This document shows positions 775 through 39,183 of a stretch of DNA of 64,000 nt, piece by piece. The translations under genes were made by a program, and so were the position numbers. The notes below the pieces were generated by a model. That model was not told the origin of the DNA. It saw nothing but the letters and a program-made list of their open reading frames with translations, and did not search any database. Numbering within the stretch: position 1 is the first letter of the stretch; each line of letters starts with the position of its first letter. This DNA is from Candidatus Absconditabacteria bacterium (lineage in GTDB: Bacteria; Patescibacteriota; Gracilibacteria; Absconditabacterales; Absconditicoccaceae), in NCBI GenBank assembly GCA_028685875.1, contig JAQUDD010000005.1, positions 1-64,000 of the forward strand. The letters run 5' to 3'.

Positions 775-2178
775 CTAAATATTCTTGAAATTATACAGTT
801 CAACTCCATTAATCATGTCTGATTTTACCTCAGAATTGGATTCATTTGCCTGAACAATCAAGATTTTATCATCAAGGGAAATATTCCCTTTAAAGATAAT
901 TCTGATCATCTCTTTCCCAATTCTCTTGAGATTCTCATAGTTGAAGGATTGAGAAATCTTATATCCTTTTACTCCCCGGATCACATTAAGAAATCTGTAG
1001 GTATCATTCCCCTTAGTAAAGGTAATAACAGGGACACTCGGATTGAGTGATGCGATTCTTGCAGAAGTATATCCATTTTCTGTAAAGCAAACAATCGCTT
1101 TAATATTGAGTTCCTTGGTGATTCTATATGCATTATAAATGATATAATCCCTTACTTCAAAATCAGCCTCATCAAATCTTTTAAGATCTTTCTCAGCAAC
1201 TTGGAGTTCATATTTTTCTAGTGCAGTTTCCAAAACACTAATTGTATCAAAGACATCATCTTCAACGATCATGGTCCCTAGATTCAGTCCATCAACCCCT
1301 GTCTTGCAAAGTGTTTGAAGTATTTGATCTTGTTTAAGTGCATAATTTTTATTTCTTCCTCCCTTGATATAACTTACCAGAACCGGGATTCCCTTCCCTC
1401 TAATCCGTGCGATACAATCTTCCAAACTTTTCTCACTCAACCAAGGATTAATCATATCAGCTACCAAAATAATTCCCTCAGCTGCCTGCATAATTTCATC
1501 AAGATGTTCTAATCCATGCTGAGTTTCAATCTTTGCAAAGATTTTCATTTCAGCTTTATTGTGATCTTGCAAGAAGGAACGCATATCCTTGATATGCTGT
1601 GCAGAATAGGCGGCAGATACCGCTAAAATATGGGTTCCGTATTCAATCCCTCGGAGAATGTCTTTTTTGTCTTGTTCACTAATCGTGCTAATTTCTTCTT
1701 CATGGTGTTCTAGGCTTACTCTATCATACTGAAAAATCTGACCTGTAGCTGCAGAGAGGACTTTACATTCCGCATAATCTTCTTTCTTCTCTTCTACTCT
1801 GAGCACTACTTCAGACTGCTCAAAAACAATCTCACTTCCTAGAGGAACTTTGTCTAGATGAGCGTAATCAATATAAATTTTCTTATCACTTTCTTGGGTA
1901 TATTCAGAATAATCAATAGTGATAGTCTGGTTCTTTTTAACTGGGATGTCTGTAGTGTTTTTTACCCTAACATTATTCCCTTTTGTCTCCAGAATAATCG
2001 TCTTGCTATTGTCCAGCTTCATCAAGGTATCGATATATTTCTTATTATTATCATCGAATCCACGAGAAAGCGTAATGCTAAATGCATCCACCATATTGAT
2101 AATTTTTGAGAGAACGGTTTCTTTAGCCAAAATAGGGCTAACACTCGCTATAATCTTGGTGAAACGAAAGTTATTCAT
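775..2178 (-). CDS. Degenerate pyruvate kinase paralogue, probable pseudoenzyme
   Basis: The 467-residue length and colinear motifs place this in the pyruvate kinase family: KIIASVSP at the N-terminus, then ETKG and AKIETQHG. Most catalytic positions seen in active enzymes are changed. The RLNFSH segment is SITLSRGF, losing the Arg and Asn that bind ATP and K+. DTKGPEIR is ETKGNNVR, and the metal-binding ARGDLG motif is VADMINP. The catalytic Lys of the KIE motif remains. No TGA occurs in frame and the stop is TAG. A second, intact pyruvate kinase lies at 43273-44691, so this copy is free to have another role, perhaps regulatory or structural. Function is unknown; family membership is clear. 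Confidence 0.85.
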   Translation of the reverse strand: MNNFRFTKIIASVSPILAKETVLSKIINMVDAFSITLSRGFDDNNKKYIDTLMKLDNSKTIILETKGNNVRVKNTTDIPVKKNQTITIDYSEYTQESDKKIYIDYAHLDKVPLGSEIVFEQSEVVLRVEEKKEDYAECKVLSAATGQIFQYDRVSLEHHEEEISTISEQDKKDILRGIEYGTHILAVSAAYSAQHIKDMRSFLQDHNKAEMKIFAKIETQHGLEHLDEIMQAAEGIILVADMINPWLSEKSLEDCIARIRGKGIPVLVSYIKGGRNKNYALKQDQILQTLCKTGVDGLNLGTMIVEDDVFDTISVLETALEKYELQVAEKDLKRFDEADFEVRDYIIYNAYRITKELNIKAIVCFTENGYTSARIASLNPSVPVITFTKGNDTYRFLNVIRGVKGYKISQSFNYENLKRIGKEMIRIIFKGNISLDDKILIVQANESNSEVKSDMINGVELYNFKNI

Positions 2179-2340
2179 ACAAAAAAAAGGACAGATAAAG
2201 GGCGGCGTCTTATACTCATTTTTTTGAAAAATGCAAGAGAAGATTCCTTGTGAATACGAAGAAAACAGCTCTTAAGCTATATTTCTAGTCTCTATTTTCT
2301 TTATTTACTCTTTAGATACTATTAAAAATACTCAACTCAA

Positions 2341-3780
2341 TTATCTATCATCTACCACTACAAAACCTCTTCTCTCAATTTGTCTCACAGCATTTCTATC
2401 ATTGATAGAGATAATTCCATTTGCATCAGTTCTCATCTGTTTAATTTCGTCCCCTACGAGAAGAGAAATATCTTTATTCTGATATCCATCAGGAAAAGCA
2501 ATAATGAGTTGTCCACTTTTCTTTCCTCCACTAATGTCTGTCTTCACTTCCAAAAGAGGAAGTTCATCAAAGGTCTTTACAGTAATAGAAACTCAGACAG
2601 CTTTTTCAAGTTCTCCGATTGCAGAGCCACCTCTTCCAATGATTTTTCCTTTCACAAATTCAGGAACATAGAGTTCAATACTATTCCCTCTCATCTTAAC
2701 CACAAATTCGCAGTTCAGAATGTTTTTTAGTTTCTTCTCAATTCCTTCTTTTGCATATCCTGAAATTGTTGCTTTTCTATTGGCAGCAGGAGTTCCTTCT
2801 GTTCCTTCTTCAGGAATTGGCATTACCATTACTTGTTCACCAAAGGTATAGATTTCATAGAGCTTTCTTTTACTTAAAAATGAAGATACTACGATCACGG
2901 GTCTTGCAAGTTCTTCACTGAGCATTCCATCAGGAACTTTCGCTGTAAGCTCAAGTTGAAGGATTTCAGAAATCTGACCTTTATCAATAAAAATCACGGT
3001 ATCAAGGACCTGCGGGATCATTCCCATCTCGATTGATCCAATGAATCTCTGAATACTATCAATCGGCTTGGTAGCATGGATCACTCCCACCATTCCAATT
3101 CCTGTCAATCTCAAGTCTTTATAGAGCTCGAAATCAGGTTTATTTCTTACTTCATCATAAATGGTATAGTCAGGTCTGGAAAGAAGTAAAATATCTCTTA
3201 CTTCATCGTGAGAACCGTGCGTAAAACTATATTGCACCACATCATCATCTACCATGAGATCACGAGGAGATTCCACGGTTTTAATGATATGATTGTCTTG
3301 ATGATAGACTTGTACCAATGCTTGCACAAAGGTAGATTTTCCACTTCCAGGAGCTCCAGAAACTAGAATTCCTTTTGCAGTATTTCTGAGTAATTCAAAG
3401 GTTTCTTCACTGAGATTATAATCTTCAATCGTGGTTTTTTTTACCGGTCTTACCGCAGTAATTTCCAGTCCATCTGAAAGAGGAGGGTATACAATTACAA
3501 TTCTGTAGGGTCCGAGCTGCAACACTTTGGAAAGTTTTCTGTCAATTTCTAGAAAATTCCCTCTCTGATTGGTAGCTTCTTGAAAAATCTGATCAATGAG
3601 TGCTTTCAGATTTTCTTCACTCATAATTTCCTTTTCATCCATCACAGGTTTCCAGTTTCCGGGAAATCCCTTTTTTCTGAGAACAGGTCTGTCAGCCTTA
3701 AGATGGAGGGACATTGTTGTTTCGTCGAAATAGATATCAAGAGCATAAGTCTGTGTTTCTTTCTCTACTTTTGTTGTCAT
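2341..3780 (-). CDS. PilT-like ATPase with C-terminal KH domain
   Basis: A 479-residue protein with a secretion-type ATPase core: Walker A SGAPGSGKSTF near residue 145, then a Walker B-like DYTIYDEVR and the HATKPIDSIQRF segment typical of PilT-like ATPases. Near residue 390 the KH signature IIGRGGSAIGELEKAVGVSI appears, its GRGG being the nucleic-acid-binding loop. One in-frame TGA (2593-2595) lies in this KH helix at a glycine. The ATPase-KH order matches COG1855-type ATPases, common in archaea and CPR bacteria, but I see no N-terminal PIN nuclease domain; the first ~110 residues are different. Probable role: a nucleic-acid-associated motor. Not a pilus retraction ATPase. Confidence 0.8.
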
Positions 3781-3964
3781 TGAGTTTTATTTAGAAAGTA
3801 TAAAGCATCCTAAGTATAAATAGCTTCTTCATTTTTGCAAATAATAAAAAATATTCTTCAGCTTTTTCTTAGTTTTTCTCTTCCTATATGTTGATTTTTT
3901 CGCTAGTTTCCATATAAGCGACATAGTAAAAAGGTGTATTTAGTTCTTATCGCTATTCTAGATA

Positions 3965-4534
3965 ATGTATTTTCATCTGATTGGAATTAAAGAAAAAGAG
4001 AAACAACAGTTCCAAATAGACATTCTCTGTGAAGCTGGTTCTGAAGAAGAACTAAAGTATTTTTTGGATGCACGGTGAGTAGTGGTAGTTTCTTTAGAAA
4101 ATTATACTTCTGACCCCATCAGTTTTGGAAGATTAAGAGCAGAAATCGAGGTAAAAAACCAAAAGATCCAGATCGTATTACAGAGAACGGAATTAGAGGA
4201 AACCATAAACTTTCTCTACGATATGGGAACAAGAGTGCTAGATATCAATTATCTGGATACTCCCTTTACTCAACAGGAAATAACACAGCTTATCAACAAA
4301 GTGGAGCATGAATTTGCCCAAGAAACCAAAATTCTTCAAGCTGAGAAAGATGCAGGAGAACAAAAAGAGAAGAAGAAATACACAAATAAGAGTATCCCTC
4401 AGACAATAAAGATTATTAATGATAATGTGGATCGTATTGATCAGCTTCTACTTATTGGAAACACAATCTTAGATTTCCAAGAAAAAAAACAGTTAACAGA
4501 AATTGCCAATGAGCTAAAAAAAATCAGACTTTGA
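3965..4534 (+). CDS. Unknown protein with GspF/PilC N-terminal-like segment
   Basis: A 189-residue soluble protein, first of three same-strand genes (15-base gaps). One in-frame TGA at 4076-4078 joins the N-terminal 37 residues to the rest. The segment AGSEEELKYFLDARG followed by VVVVSLE resembles the small N-terminal beta domain of type IV pilus/secretion membrane proteins (PilC/GspF), but no GspF transmembrane domain follows. The C-terminal half is charged and helical. I do not recognise the family. The ATG at 3965 is the first in frame and is kept because the domain-like segment begins directly after it. Confidence 0.75.
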
Positions 4535-4549
4535 ACTAACTTCAACAAA

Positions 4550-5083
4550 ATGGTAATTCTTCTCCTTGATGCTCAGGGAGTAATTGAGAAAAATGAGGAG
4601 AAAGTACTTATAGCCCTTGATGATAAGAAATTTCTCATTGACAGAAATAGTATCATTTCCAATATTGATGTAATTTCAGAATCCTCAAAGCAGACCCAAG
4701 CAGAGGAGAGAAAAATGCTCAAACAAGTATTGAGTACCAAAGATGTTCTTTATGTAAGTGGGAAAAATATCACTACTTTTGCAAATTTTCTGTATAAAGA
4801 TTTGTTACTTTCTTTTACAACTCCTCAGCAGTTCATAGCTAATTGTTTGCTCCGGTGTGAATATCTGCTTCTGGTCACTGTGGTAGGATATGCAGTACGA
4901 GGATTTATTCTATGAGATGGATCATCTCTCTATCTTTTTCATATGGGGTTAGCGGGGACTCTTCTTTATCTCTATTTGCTCATCAGTCCTAAAAGACTTT
5001 CTACCCAAATTCTTTGAATATTAGGGGGGGCTGTTATATACTATATTCTCTATTCCTTGCTCAGCAATACGTTCGCTTTTTAA
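4550..5083 (+). CDS. Unknown membrane protein
   Basis: A 177-residue protein with a soluble N-terminal ~100 residues and two or three hydrophobic segments near the C-terminus (around residues 103-175). Two TGA codons (4913, 5015) fall within the membrane part and read as glycine, for example in LGILGGAVIYY. The stop is TAA at 5081. It sits between the preceding unknown gene and the large polytopic protein, 14-15 bases from each, so the three are probably co-transcribed. No family recognised. Confidence 0.7.
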
Positions 5084-34710: not shown

Positions 34711-34851
34711 TACAACAACGGGGAATAAAATATATGCAAGTTCCTTTTTAGAAATTCTGGGAAAAAGGTAAAGAGATTTTTTCTGAATGCTCTTGTTATT
34801 TGGGGTACTCTTACGTACTATCTATCTTTGTATTTTATCTATACAGTAGTA

Positions 34852-35820
34852 ATGAAACTGAAAGAAATTGGGATCTCCACGATGATTGGATTGGGAGTGG
34901 TCGCCTGTGGAGAGGGAGGTAAAAAAGAAGAGTCTTACAAAGATATTTCTCCCACAGAAAAAATTGAGGAAGTACAAGAGGATATTTCTTCAAAAATTTT
35001 TGGGGTAGTATTGAGTGAATATATCCAAAAATCTGATTCTACCTATTTTACTCTAAAAGACCTTCTCCAAGAGATACCTCAAGATAAATCAGAGATTATC
35101 ATAAAAAGGCCTCTTTCTGAGTTAGTAGAAAAAAATTCTAGGACAAAAGGAACCAATCCCCTAAGTAAAGTAAAAAAAACATTCGGAGAAATATTGGGGT
35201 ATAATCAGGTAGATTCTATTATGAAGAAAAATCCCCAACTAGCAGATAAAAACATAGAGCCAACTACAGAATATACAAAGTTTTTGTGAGATACTCTTTC
35301 TTATCCACTGATATATCCGGAATTAAAAGACAAGTTTCCTGGTTATTTTAACGAAATCTTTGAAAAAGATAATTTTACCTATGCTCAGAAAGATAGTCTA
35401 AAGATAGCAAATACGGAAAGCCCTATAAAAGTAGTGATTATGAATGTGGGAAGTGGGGAACAAGCGTTATGAGTTTATAGGGATGAAAAGCTATTTTTAA
35501 CAACCTATGTATCGGTTGGAAAAAATTGAAGAACTCCTACATGATTGTACGAAGAAAAGGCATTATTTAAACACGGGTGGTCAAGCAGATATAAATGCCC
35601 CCTTCCCTATGCAGTAGGATTTAAAAAGATTAAAAAGAAAGATGGAACACGAACCTGGTGATATTTATTGCACGATTGAGAGGTTAATTGAATTCCCCTT
35701 TCTCATGGATGTATTAGAGTCCCAGGACTATACCAAGAGATTATATATTATTTGGTAGATAAGAATACTTTTATTCGGGTTGCAGATAACCTCTATCATG
35801 TTGACGAAAAAGAAGGATAA
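34852..35820 (+). CDS. L,D-transpeptidase (YkuD) lipoprotein
   Basis: A 322-residue exported enzyme that would form 3-3 cross-links in peptidoglycan. A short signal ends GLGVVACG, a lipobox with Cys at about residue 18. A ~170-residue acidic/helical region precedes the YkuD domain: VSVGKNGRTPTGLY, then HDGEVNGIPLSHGCIRVPG with the catalytic His-Gly-Cys-Arg. Seven TGA codons read as Gly, including the one after TPT and the two around the active site. ATG 34852 is chosen because it starts the signal. Transcribed alone, with the terminator starting inside the gene. Confidence 0.93.
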
Positions 35821-35892: not shown

Positions 35893-36747
35893 TTACTTGT
35901 TTACTTTACCTATTAAGAATTTAATCATGATGTCTGCGATGTTGATGTTCGTTTTCTTTTGTGTCCCCGAAAAATCACAAGGAAAGTTAACTTCCGAAAC
36001 GTATGGGCGTTCTGTAGACTCTTCAAACAAGATATCAACACCTCAAAATTCTACTCCAAAAGAATTTACCGCATTAACAGCCAAGTCTTGAATTTCTGCG
36101 CTATATGTTTTTGCTTCCCAAACTCTAGTTTTATCATCACCAATATTTGACCTAAAGTCGTGAGAGATTGACATAATAGCTATATCGCTTGCTATCACTT
36201 TATTCCCCACGACTACTAGTCTTCCTTGTTGGTGATGTTGAACAAACCTACGAAGAATGAATTTAGTATTTCCACTTTCCAAATAATCAATAATCGAACG
36301 TAAACTTGAGATACTATCTACTTTCATTACACCTACACCATGACTTCATCAGGTTACCTTCAATACAACAGGGAATCATCCTAAATGTTCAACATATTGT
36401 TCTAAAAGACCTTTATTCGAAAGATCAGGAATTGTTGGAATAATCGGTAGTCAGACCATTTTGTTAAATAAAAAGGAATCATTACGAAAATTTATTCCTT
36501 CTACTGGGTTCTTGTGGAAAGACACGCCTCATTTAGTAAGAACGAATGATTCTATGGCCCTGCAAGCGTGGGTTGAACTAGATCTGTATAGTAGGTCTCA
36601 TTTTTTTACCAATCCCTCTTCTAGAAAATTAAAATCTTCAGGGATAATATCCAAGAAGTCTATGTTATTGTTTATGCATGCCTCTTCTAAAAAGTCTCTA
36701 ATATTAAGGTTCTGGGAGAGATTTTTTCTTATAAAAAAGAGTTTCAT
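35893..36747 (-). CDS. RimK-like ATP-grasp ligase
   Basis: A 284-residue ATP-grasp protein, expected to join an amino acid to a carboxylate through an acyl phosphate. Visible parts: FPVVLKVTGGSHGVGVM (ATP-binding loop, its GG encoded by tandem TGA-TGA), LRRFVQHHQQGRLVVVGNKV, DFRSNIGDD, and GVDILFEES with PYVSEVNFP, the metal-binding end of the fold. Seven TGA codons in total. It follows the ligase/carboxypeptidase fusion by 24 bases on the same strand, so both are probably one operon. Substrate unknown; RimK relatives add glutamate to protein C-termini or build gamma-glutamyl peptides. Confidence 0.85.
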
Positions 36748-36771
36748 AATAATTGAAATTAGAGTATAAAA

Positions 36772-39183
36772 TTACCTAATGAGCACCAAATCCGCGACTT
36801 TCACTTTACCCAAAAGTACACCTTTACCAATATTACTTCCTTTTACTTTTTGGTATCCTTCTAAGTATACTTTATTTTTTTTCCAGCAATATCCCTTTAA
36901 TTTTGATGAATTATGAATGAGCCCTTTCCTAATCCTAATACATGCCTTAAATTTCCCTTCAACAGAGTAGTGAGGATACACAATCCCCGCAAGATCAAAA
37001 AGCTGCTTAAAGTTCAAATGCATGGCTTCATGAAGGAGATAATATTTTTTATAGATTCAAAAACTCTCATATCATTCTGGTAACTTCTGCTTAGCATTCC
37101 ATATTGCAAGCCCTTCCTCATCTCTTAAGTAGTTAGCCGTCCCACTTGCGAAGATTTTCCATCAACTTTTCTTCCCATTGAGATATCTCGTCAAATGTGT
37201 ATCCACCTCATGTGCAATGAGCCCTTCAACCTCTCCTTCTCTAAAGGAAATCCCTTGAGAAATATTGATCTTTACTTCCTTTCCCATCGTAATCGACATA
37301 CGAGCTAAGTTATCCGAATTCTCAACGATTTCTATCCCATAAATCCCAAGTTCATTTAGCCTTTTCTCAATCTTCTCATAAACATAGTCAAAAGAGACAA
37401 AGTCTCAGAGTAAATTCTTATCTTCTTTTTCTCTGACTTTTTCTTTGCTGAGCTTGATAAGCTCCTCATCAAAGTCTCCTCGTAGGAGAGTGTTCCCTTT
37501 CTCAATCGCACCAAAGTCCTGCTTCATATAGGCTGATAAGAGCTGATGTCTAATAACGAGTTCTTCAACTTTCTCACTAAACAGCTGTACTAAAGGACTT
37601 TTGAGATTCCCACTGGCACATTGTTCTTGGAGCTGTTGCAGCTCATCAGCCCATTGCTCCATCCTTTTTTCTTCAGGGAAGTTATAAGAAAAAGTCGGAG
37701 CGTAATTTCCTTTTCGGGTGATGAAATTATCCAGTTCTTCTAAGTAATTTTTTGGTCTTAGTCTTGCGGTTAGATTTAATCTTTTGTGGAGGAGATCAAT
37801 TTTGTCGTCAAGCTGATGTAAAGCAACTAGTTCACTATCTATCACCGCTTCTGGCTTGAGAATATTAATGGTTTCTACTTCTTTTTTGATGGGCTTAATC
37901 AGATAATTTTCTGCTACTTTTCTTCCGAGGATGATTTCATTATGTAATTTTTCAGCAGCAGAAAATTCTAGTTGCTTGAGAATGACATAATTTTCAGGAA
38001 GTTCAATATAGAGCGTCTGATTCTGTTCCTGAATCTTTTCTAAGAGACTTGGGGAAATATAGTTCAGCTTTTTGTTTAGATCTACGCTTACTTTTACAGA
38101 AAAGTCTTCAGTTATTTCATCCCCTTTTACTCTTAATATTCCTGGTTGAGAAAGGTAGAGAATCTTTTCATTCTTACTTGTTTTCTGGTCCCTTCTAAAG
38201 AGTGTTTTTGCGATCTCTACTCCTTTTTGTGGTTCTTGAATATTCAGATCTTCAATCTTTTTTAAAACATTCCCAAGCTTCACATTCGAAATCTTTTGTA
38301 CTTCAAGTCCTGCTCTCGCATTAATTTCTAAAAGCTTCGGACCATCTTCCGTAATTACCCAATCTAGAGCGAGATATCCCAAGTTTACAAAATACTGAAT
38401 CTTACTAGAGAGAAAAAGCAGATCATCCCAAAAGGGAATTTTCTTCCCCTGATACTCCTTACTCTCTCCAGGAAAAGTCTTCATATAAATATTCCCTTTT
38501 TGGAAAGTGCTAAATAGTATACCATTCCCTATTTCGATTCCACATCCGATCCCTCCGGAATTGATATTTGCCTTACCTCAAGACTTTTCGGTAGGGATCC
38601 TAATCATTGCGGCCACAGGTACAAGATTAAAGACAATGATTCTAATATCTGCCAATCCTCGATGACAAAAATCTTTAAATCCCGTCCCCGGAAGTAACTT
38701 TTCTTCAATAAGAAGGGTATCGTTACTTGTCATCGAATAATGTCCATCCAAGATGTCAGAACAATGTAATTTAAGCTGATCTTCATCTAAAATCTTTTTC
38801 CCAACTCTAAAGATCTGTTTTTTTTCTTTTACTGTTGTGGTTTTCTTCCCCTTGCGAGAAAGAAAAGAGAGAACTCCTTTATGAATAGGCTGTTCAACTT
38901 CCTCTTCTCAGAGATAGGAAACGAGCATAATTCCTCTTCCTTTACTTCCATGGTTAGGTTTGATGACAAAATCCTTCTTCCCCAATGCAGAAAAATCAAA
39001 AGCAGCAAGTTCTTTATTTGACTTGATTAATGCATAACTCTCTGCAAAAGGAATCCCCCTGTCTCCGAGGAAGTTTTTAGTCTTTTGCTTATTATCAGCT
39101 AAACGAATAGCCTTCTTCTCATTAAATTTTTTAATATAGTGCAGATTTCTTGCATTATTTCAGAGGATTCAGAAGCTGAACAT
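36772..39183 (-). CDS. Fusion of ATP-grasp ligase and DUF1704/MATCAP-like metallocarboxypeptidase
   Basis: An 803-residue two-domain protein. Residues about 1-330 match the alpha-L-glutamate-ligase-related ATP-grasp family (ATPgrasp_ST): NNARNLHYIKKFN, FVIKPNHGSKGRGI, LADIRIIVF, PVAAMIRIPTEKSGGKANIN, LGYLALDWV and LLEINARAGLEVQ. Residues about 400-800 match DUF1704, the family of eukaryotic tubulin tyrosine carboxypeptidase MATCAP: EGLIAHEVDTHLTR (H-E-x3-H zinc motif), GTANYLRDEEGLAIW (the QEGLA motif, here EEGLA) and KNKVYLEGYQKV. Seven TGA codons read as Gly. A ligase and a likely terminal-residue hydrolase in one chain suggests a reversible tagging enzyme. Family calls are firm, the reaction is inferred. 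Confidence 0.85.

Follow-up and report, generated by a model that had tools for sequence, protein, structure and literature searches.

In Pseudomonas aeruginosa, the genes rloB and rloC belong to one pathway with RloA, which cleaves polyglutamate (PMC12239564). Loss of either gene rescues the loss of the RloA proteases at low osmolarity, and rlo mutants show cell-shape and ampicillin phenotypes, for which the authors give no direct cell wall target (PMC12239564). RimB has two effects on polyglutamate, cleaving the polymer and stimulating its synthesis by RimK, and hybrids of the two proteins (RimBK) are known (PMC11957791). Among the members of the MATCAP/TMCP family are carboxypeptidases that take residues off tubulin tails (PMC10499314). 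In Photobacterium damselae, a MATCAP-family gene was upregulated 27-fold at low salt (PMC10308900), which agrees with the link of Rlo to low osmolarity.

We analysed a 64,000-nucleotide stretch of DNA (the window) from a Candidatus Absconditabacteria bacterium. Read in genetic code 25, its minus strand holds a single open reading frame of 803 residues (P0001), followed after a gap of 24 bases by one of 284 residues (P0002):

36772..39183, minus strand: fusion gene P0001, 803 amino acids in code 25, comprising ATP-grasp, degenerate retropepsin-like and MATCAP metallopeptidase domains
38254..39150, minus strand: RloC-type ATP-grasp ligase domain, residues 12-310 (PF14397, TIGR02291, RimK/ArgX fold, conservation)
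37882..38202, minus strand: retropepsin-like domain in the middle of the protein, residues about 328-434, with VDL in place of the catalytic DTG (hhalign, motif columns, PF05618 in unfused relatives, model matching RloA)
36775..37770, minus strand: MATCAP (DUF1704) domain, a predicted metallocarboxypeptidase, residues 472-803, Pfam match from 486 (PF08014; PDB 7z5g by sequence and structure)
37195..37212, minus strand: H-E-V-D-T-H metal-binding/catalytic motif, residues 658-663 (H, E and H invariant in 88 of 88 fusions)
37105..37119, minus strand: E-E-G-L-A motif, residues 689-693, with E690 as putative third metal ligand (conservation; role of the motif in the human enzyme, PMC10499314)
35893..36747, minus strand: RimK-like ATP-grasp gene P0002, 284 amino acids, 24 bases downstream of P0001, accessory and not universal (PF08443)

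In table 11 both genes are broken and the longest open reading frame there comprises 359 amino acids. Two of the eight TGA codons, those for G5 and G8, fall where 77 and 79, respectively, of 80 relatives using the standard code have glycine. This supports TGA as a glycine codon, and code 25 is the right reading here. An earlier note on this DNA had described an 803-residue ligase-peptidase fusion with HExxxH and EEGLA motifs, a second ATP-grasp gene 24 bases further on and the concealment of both genes by the standard code, and all of this was borne out: coordinates, lengths and gap were right, Pfam recovered both domains, and P0002 matched the RimK-like family PF08443 (E 3.5e-19). The view of P0001 as a two-domain protein was incomplete; ligase and peptidase are present, but a third, retropepsin-like domain between them had been overlooked. 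No signal peptide was found in P0001, so a cytosolic location is expected. A hydropathy scan returned one segment (residues 176-194), which lies within the ATP-grasp fold and has no counterpart in the homologue from locus L081.

The N-terminal domain matched Pfam ATPgrasp_ST (PF14397; E 3e-44, 151.6 bits, cut-off 31.4) and NCBIfam TIGR02291 (E 6e-56), the latter with a score of 189.7 that is below the equivalog cut-off of 314.2. Its best structural neighbours in the PDB were RimK and ArgX, with LysX also among the nearest folds, and the tubulin tyrosine ligase family (PF03133) was absent from the Pfam matches of P0001 at E 1. The analogy with tubulin tyrosine ligase drawn in the earlier note is therefore not supported: this half is of RloC/RimK type, which makes the polyglutamate-type Rim/Rlo systems the nearer model.

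The assignment of the C-terminal half to DUF1704/MATCAP was borne out. It exceeded the cut-off of PF08014 (E 6e-13, 48.9 bits versus 27), human KIAA0895L/MATCAP (7z5g) was recovered from the PDB by sequence, and the predicted domain superposed on that structure with 2.6 Å over 266 residues (Z 24.8). Among 88 aligned fusions, the H, E and H of HExxxH and the E and G of EEG were invariant in every one, as were the ATP-grasp residues K75, E160, R181, D274, E286 and N288. We know of no function described for bacterial MATCAP (QEGLA) proteins. Near the fusion, several code-25 genomes carry a further stand-alone MATCAP-like gene, which is highly divergent and about 530 residues long (L035:3997-5610, also L034, L040, L041 and L043); Pfam confirmed the domain for L035 only.

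The middle domain of P0001 itself gave no match in Pfam, and it was hidden in the structure search with the whole model, where the other domains filled the list; folding it alone revealed it. Profile comparison by hhalign related it to the RimB/RloA retropepsins (Prob 95, E 2.7e-8). The separate model of the window's domain (mean pLDDT 75.8) retrieved retropepsins from the PDB, with RloA (9g58) as the best match (Z 9.5, 2.4 Å over 89 residues). PF05618 matched the same region in unfused relatives and exceeded its cut-off in most of those scanned. In relatives from outside the class the catalytic motif reads AKIDTGA or similar, and D[TS]G was present in 19 of 20 unfused relatives versus 9 of 88 fusions, with VDL in the window. 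Judged by profiles and models, the middle domain is a degenerate relative of RimB/RloA retropepsins, and its catalytic motif is gone in this genome. A search of 59 related genomes found PF05618 in none of them, nor any separate RloA/RimB gene.

Within these 59 genomes the fusion was detected in 43, a few of the matches being to the peptidase only. A scan of GTDB genomes returned 382 related stretches, the best 80 of which all carry the fusion as one full-length open reading frame; almost all of these bear the label Peregrini-, Peri- or Gracilibacteria. This rules out an assembly join or frameshift as its source (80 of 80 loci). A peculiarity of code 25 is ruled out as well, since most copies belong to standard-code Peregrini- and Peribacteria. 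Two contigs titled Nitrospirota and Kiritimatiellales (L087 and L130) hold fusions typical of Peregrini-/Peribacteria and are probably mislabelled or misbinned. In the open-access literature we found no paper linking DUF1704 with ATP-grasp, an association that Iyer and colleagues may mention in their 2009 survey of amidoligases, and none on ATP-grasp in Gracilibacteria.

The earlier note had asked whether the two halves are separate genes in close relatives. There the fusion is one open reading frame; in more distant classes the halves are separate and often adjacent. Neither this refuting outcome nor the other one named in the note, HExxxH residues that stay apart in a predicted structure, was encountered. 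In a phylum-wide sample, genomes from outside the class mostly encode an ATP-grasp-retropepsin protein without MATCAP. In the 20 unfused loci examined, the gene of a seven-transmembrane (7TM) protein lies next door in all 20 and DTG is intact in 19, at least eight (L192, L193, L201, L202, L204, L207, L209 and L211) have a separate MATCAP gene in the vicinity, and additional ATP-grasp genes follow in several. Maximum-likelihood analysis of the ATP-grasp domain unites all fused proteins in one clade (support 100/99); in a larger tree the fused state changes once and the DTG state nine times. As far as these sequences tell, MATCAP was joined once, at the base of the class, onto an older ATP-grasp-retropepsin protein, and the retropepsin site mostly decayed afterwards: there is one fused clade with one change of state, and DTG is intact in nearly all unfused relatives. 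The MATCAP tree was unresolved, and the captured stand-alone MATCAP is not traceable from it. Since the fusion arose once, its link with the loss of DTG rests on a single event; the corresponding Fisher test (p 2e-13) is inflated by relatedness, the tree providing one independent contrast only.

These data also bear on the idea that MATCAP has nothing to do with the Rlo-type ligase to which it is fused, being a chance passenger with a different substrate. Stand-alone MATCAP genes without the ligase do occur in two of the genomes (G016 and G049), and in Sinorhizobium and Vibrio its linkage or fusion partners are other genes. However, MATCAP recurs beside unfused ATP-grasp-retropepsin genes, even the Sinorhizobium gene adjoins a glutathione-synthetase-like ATP-grasp gene, and the fusion has been kept throughout the class without change to its catalytic residues in any of 88 copies, so that we regard a passenger as very improbable. 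Two further arrangements of the family were seen: in L202 (7016-9939) a stand-alone MATCAP gene is directly followed by a gene with an N-formylglutamate amidohydrolase domain, and in Vibrio (L164:5113-7104) both domains form a single protein.

The earlier note had taken the RimK-like gene for the partner of the fusion; the conserved partner is the 7TM protein. Among the best 80 of the 382 GTDB loci, a 7TM gene lies directly upstream of the fusion in 70, usually within about 20 bases, and within the locus in 74. The protein corresponds to Pfam 7TM_transglut (PF14402), the membrane half of RloB. Scans of 7TM proteins gave no RloB transglutaminase domain (PF14400); the proteins instead carry a PKD domain or nothing named. 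By sensitive profile search, the 7TM protein was present in 40 of 40 genomes that encode the fusion's ligase part, although two of these matches were weak (one of them directly upstream of the fusion), versus 0 of 19 others, which gave at most weak matches to its outer, PKD-like part (Fisher test p 3e-11, inflated by relatedness). Among the eight genomes of the window's own genus, two have both fusion and 7TM protein and six have neither. In the genome studied here the 7TM gene is located outside the window, on another contig (G000:C14:17372-18901), and its product matched NF052267 with E 1e-5, far below the cut-off. A plasmid of Halobacterium sp. DL1 encodes 7TM and RloC-type ATP-grasp domains in one unannotated 584-residue open reading frame (L163:6164-7918), with transposase genes nearby.

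The closest match of P0002 adjoins the fusion in one congener only. This distribution rules out P0002 as an obligatory partner, though other RimK-like genes recur near fusions. Beside the fusion in L032 (8707-10854), a RimK-like gene precedes a Mur-ligase gene whose closest resemblance is to the second half of cyanophycin synthetase (E 3e-44), a pair that resembles a split polymer synthetase.

Other neighbours invite a reading as peptidoglycan editing, with ligase and peptidase acting on stem peptides or wall-precursor amino acids and the 7TM protein handling the precursor. In one Patescibacteria family (L194-L197), a class A penicillin-binding protein gene directly follows the ATP-grasp-retropepsin gene; in L194 it spans 2050-4875 and also encodes a bacterial Ig domain (Pfam, L194 only), and L195-L197 hold genes of similar size. 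MurE-like and cyanophycin-synthetase-like Mur ligases lie near the fusion in L042 and L032. In the window, an L,D-transpeptidase-like gene with an SHGCIR motif (34828-35820, plus strand) is convergent with the RimK-like gene across a gap of 72 bases. The cell-shape and ampicillin phenotypes of rlo mutants point in the same direction (PMC12239564). But all of these wall-gene neighbours are lineage-specific, the sole constant partner being the 7TM gene, and the authors of the rlo study themselves name no direct wall target (PMC12239564). This makes wall editing distinctly unlikely.

We favour, with a probability of roughly 0.6, a rewired Rlo/Rim-type system in which an RloC-type ligase adds amino acids, MATCAP trims in place of an aspartic protease and the 7TM protein serves as partner. 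This function is inferred from homology and gene linkage; we know of no reaction established for either RloC or RloB. The fusion protein would be the cytosolic half of an envelope system of Rlo type. Its ATP-grasp domain would add amino acids one by one to an acceptor, L-glutamate being the likeliest judging from the family only, and the 7TM protein would handle acceptor or product at the membrane. The MATCAP domain, in the trimming role of the aspartic protease, may shorten the carboxyl end and thereby set the length or reverse the addition. The dead retropepsin may have been retained to scaffold or stimulate the ligase. Several points count against this model: the fusion, expected in the cytosol, would trim from the opposite side of the membrane to periplasmic RloA, the 7TM gene of this genome lies on another contig, and the 7TM proteins differ from RloB in their outer part.

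The earlier note had proposed a writer and eraser of a terminal residue. Part of this stands: the fusion is real, both sets of catalytic residues are intact, and an adder and a remover in one protein fit the data. The RimK-like gene as partner and tubulin tyrosine ligase as model are not supported. A rival reading is a cytosolic, reversible tagging of protein termini resembling tubulin tyrosination, in which ATP-grasp adds one residue and MATCAP removes it. The MATCAP fold with intact motifs is compatible with this, the ATP-grasp neighbours RimK and ArgX do modify proteins, and both domains are expected in the cytosol, given the lack of a signal peptide and the hydropathy scan. Yet such tagging would leave the near-universal 7TM partner and the descent from an ATP-grasp-retropepsin protein unexplained, and no target protein is in sight. 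We consider it rather unlikely.

A more specific and quite tentative idea, towards which we lean less than against, is that the eraser of an amino-acid-polymer machine was swapped: MATCAP would have taken over trimming, and the remnant of the dead retropepsin would have been kept to drive the ligase. Were this true, the ancestry of bacterial MATCAP genes, and through them of the human tubulin enzymes, would go back to trimmers of such polymers. The fusion also suggests a possible origin of human tubulin carboxypeptidases. A class-wide natural fusion ties the MATCAP and RloC families together in a multi-domain enzyme conserved within the reduced genomes of this group. Since the fusions are single proteins, many of them from standard-code bacteria, they are suited to direct assay of ligase product and peptidase substrate.

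How does the locus compare with known systems? With human MATCAP (TMCP1 and TMCP2, PF08014) it shares the fold (Z 24.8) and the HExxxH and EEG motifs, but identity is about 20%, and the protein described here is fused to a ligase and has no tubulin target. Clusters of MATCAP (QEGLA), ATP-grasp and N-formylglutamate amidohydrolase genes in Proteobacteria also place MATCAP next to an ATP-grasp gene. However, their ATP-grasp is of the glutathione-synthetase type, the genes are separate, and in Vibrio it is an amidohydrolase domain to which MATCAP is fused. With RimB/RimK and the RimBK hybrid (PMC11957791), the locus has in common a polyglutamate-type ATP-grasp ligase paired with or fused to a retropepsin. 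In the hybrid, RimB is N-terminal to RimK, an order also seen in Thioclava (L171), whereas here the ligase is N-terminal and belongs to the RloC subfamily. In addition, RimB/RimK has an active retropepsin and lacks both MATCAP and a 7TM partner.

The likeness is broadest with RloABC of P. aeruginosa, composed of the retropepsin RloA, the membrane protein RloB and the ATP-grasp protein RloC (PMC12239564). An RloC-type ATP-grasp, an RloA-type fold and the 7TM domain of RloB all recur, and the genes are linked in most relatives (7TM adjacent in 70 of 80), although the 7TM gene is on another contig in the window's genome. The differences are that all enzymatic domains are united in one protein here and that the MATCAP peptidase was added. 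RloA is secreted, periplasmic and carries DTG, whereas the retropepsin of the fusion is internal, lacks a signal peptide and is mostly dead (VDL in the window). RloB combines an inactive transglutaminase with the 7TM domain (PF14400 and PF14402), whereas the 7TM proteins here bear PKD domains with no transglutaminase detected. Since the 7TM protein thus departs from RloB in its outer part, we set the system apart from RloABC and class it as a variant with a probably similar mode of action.
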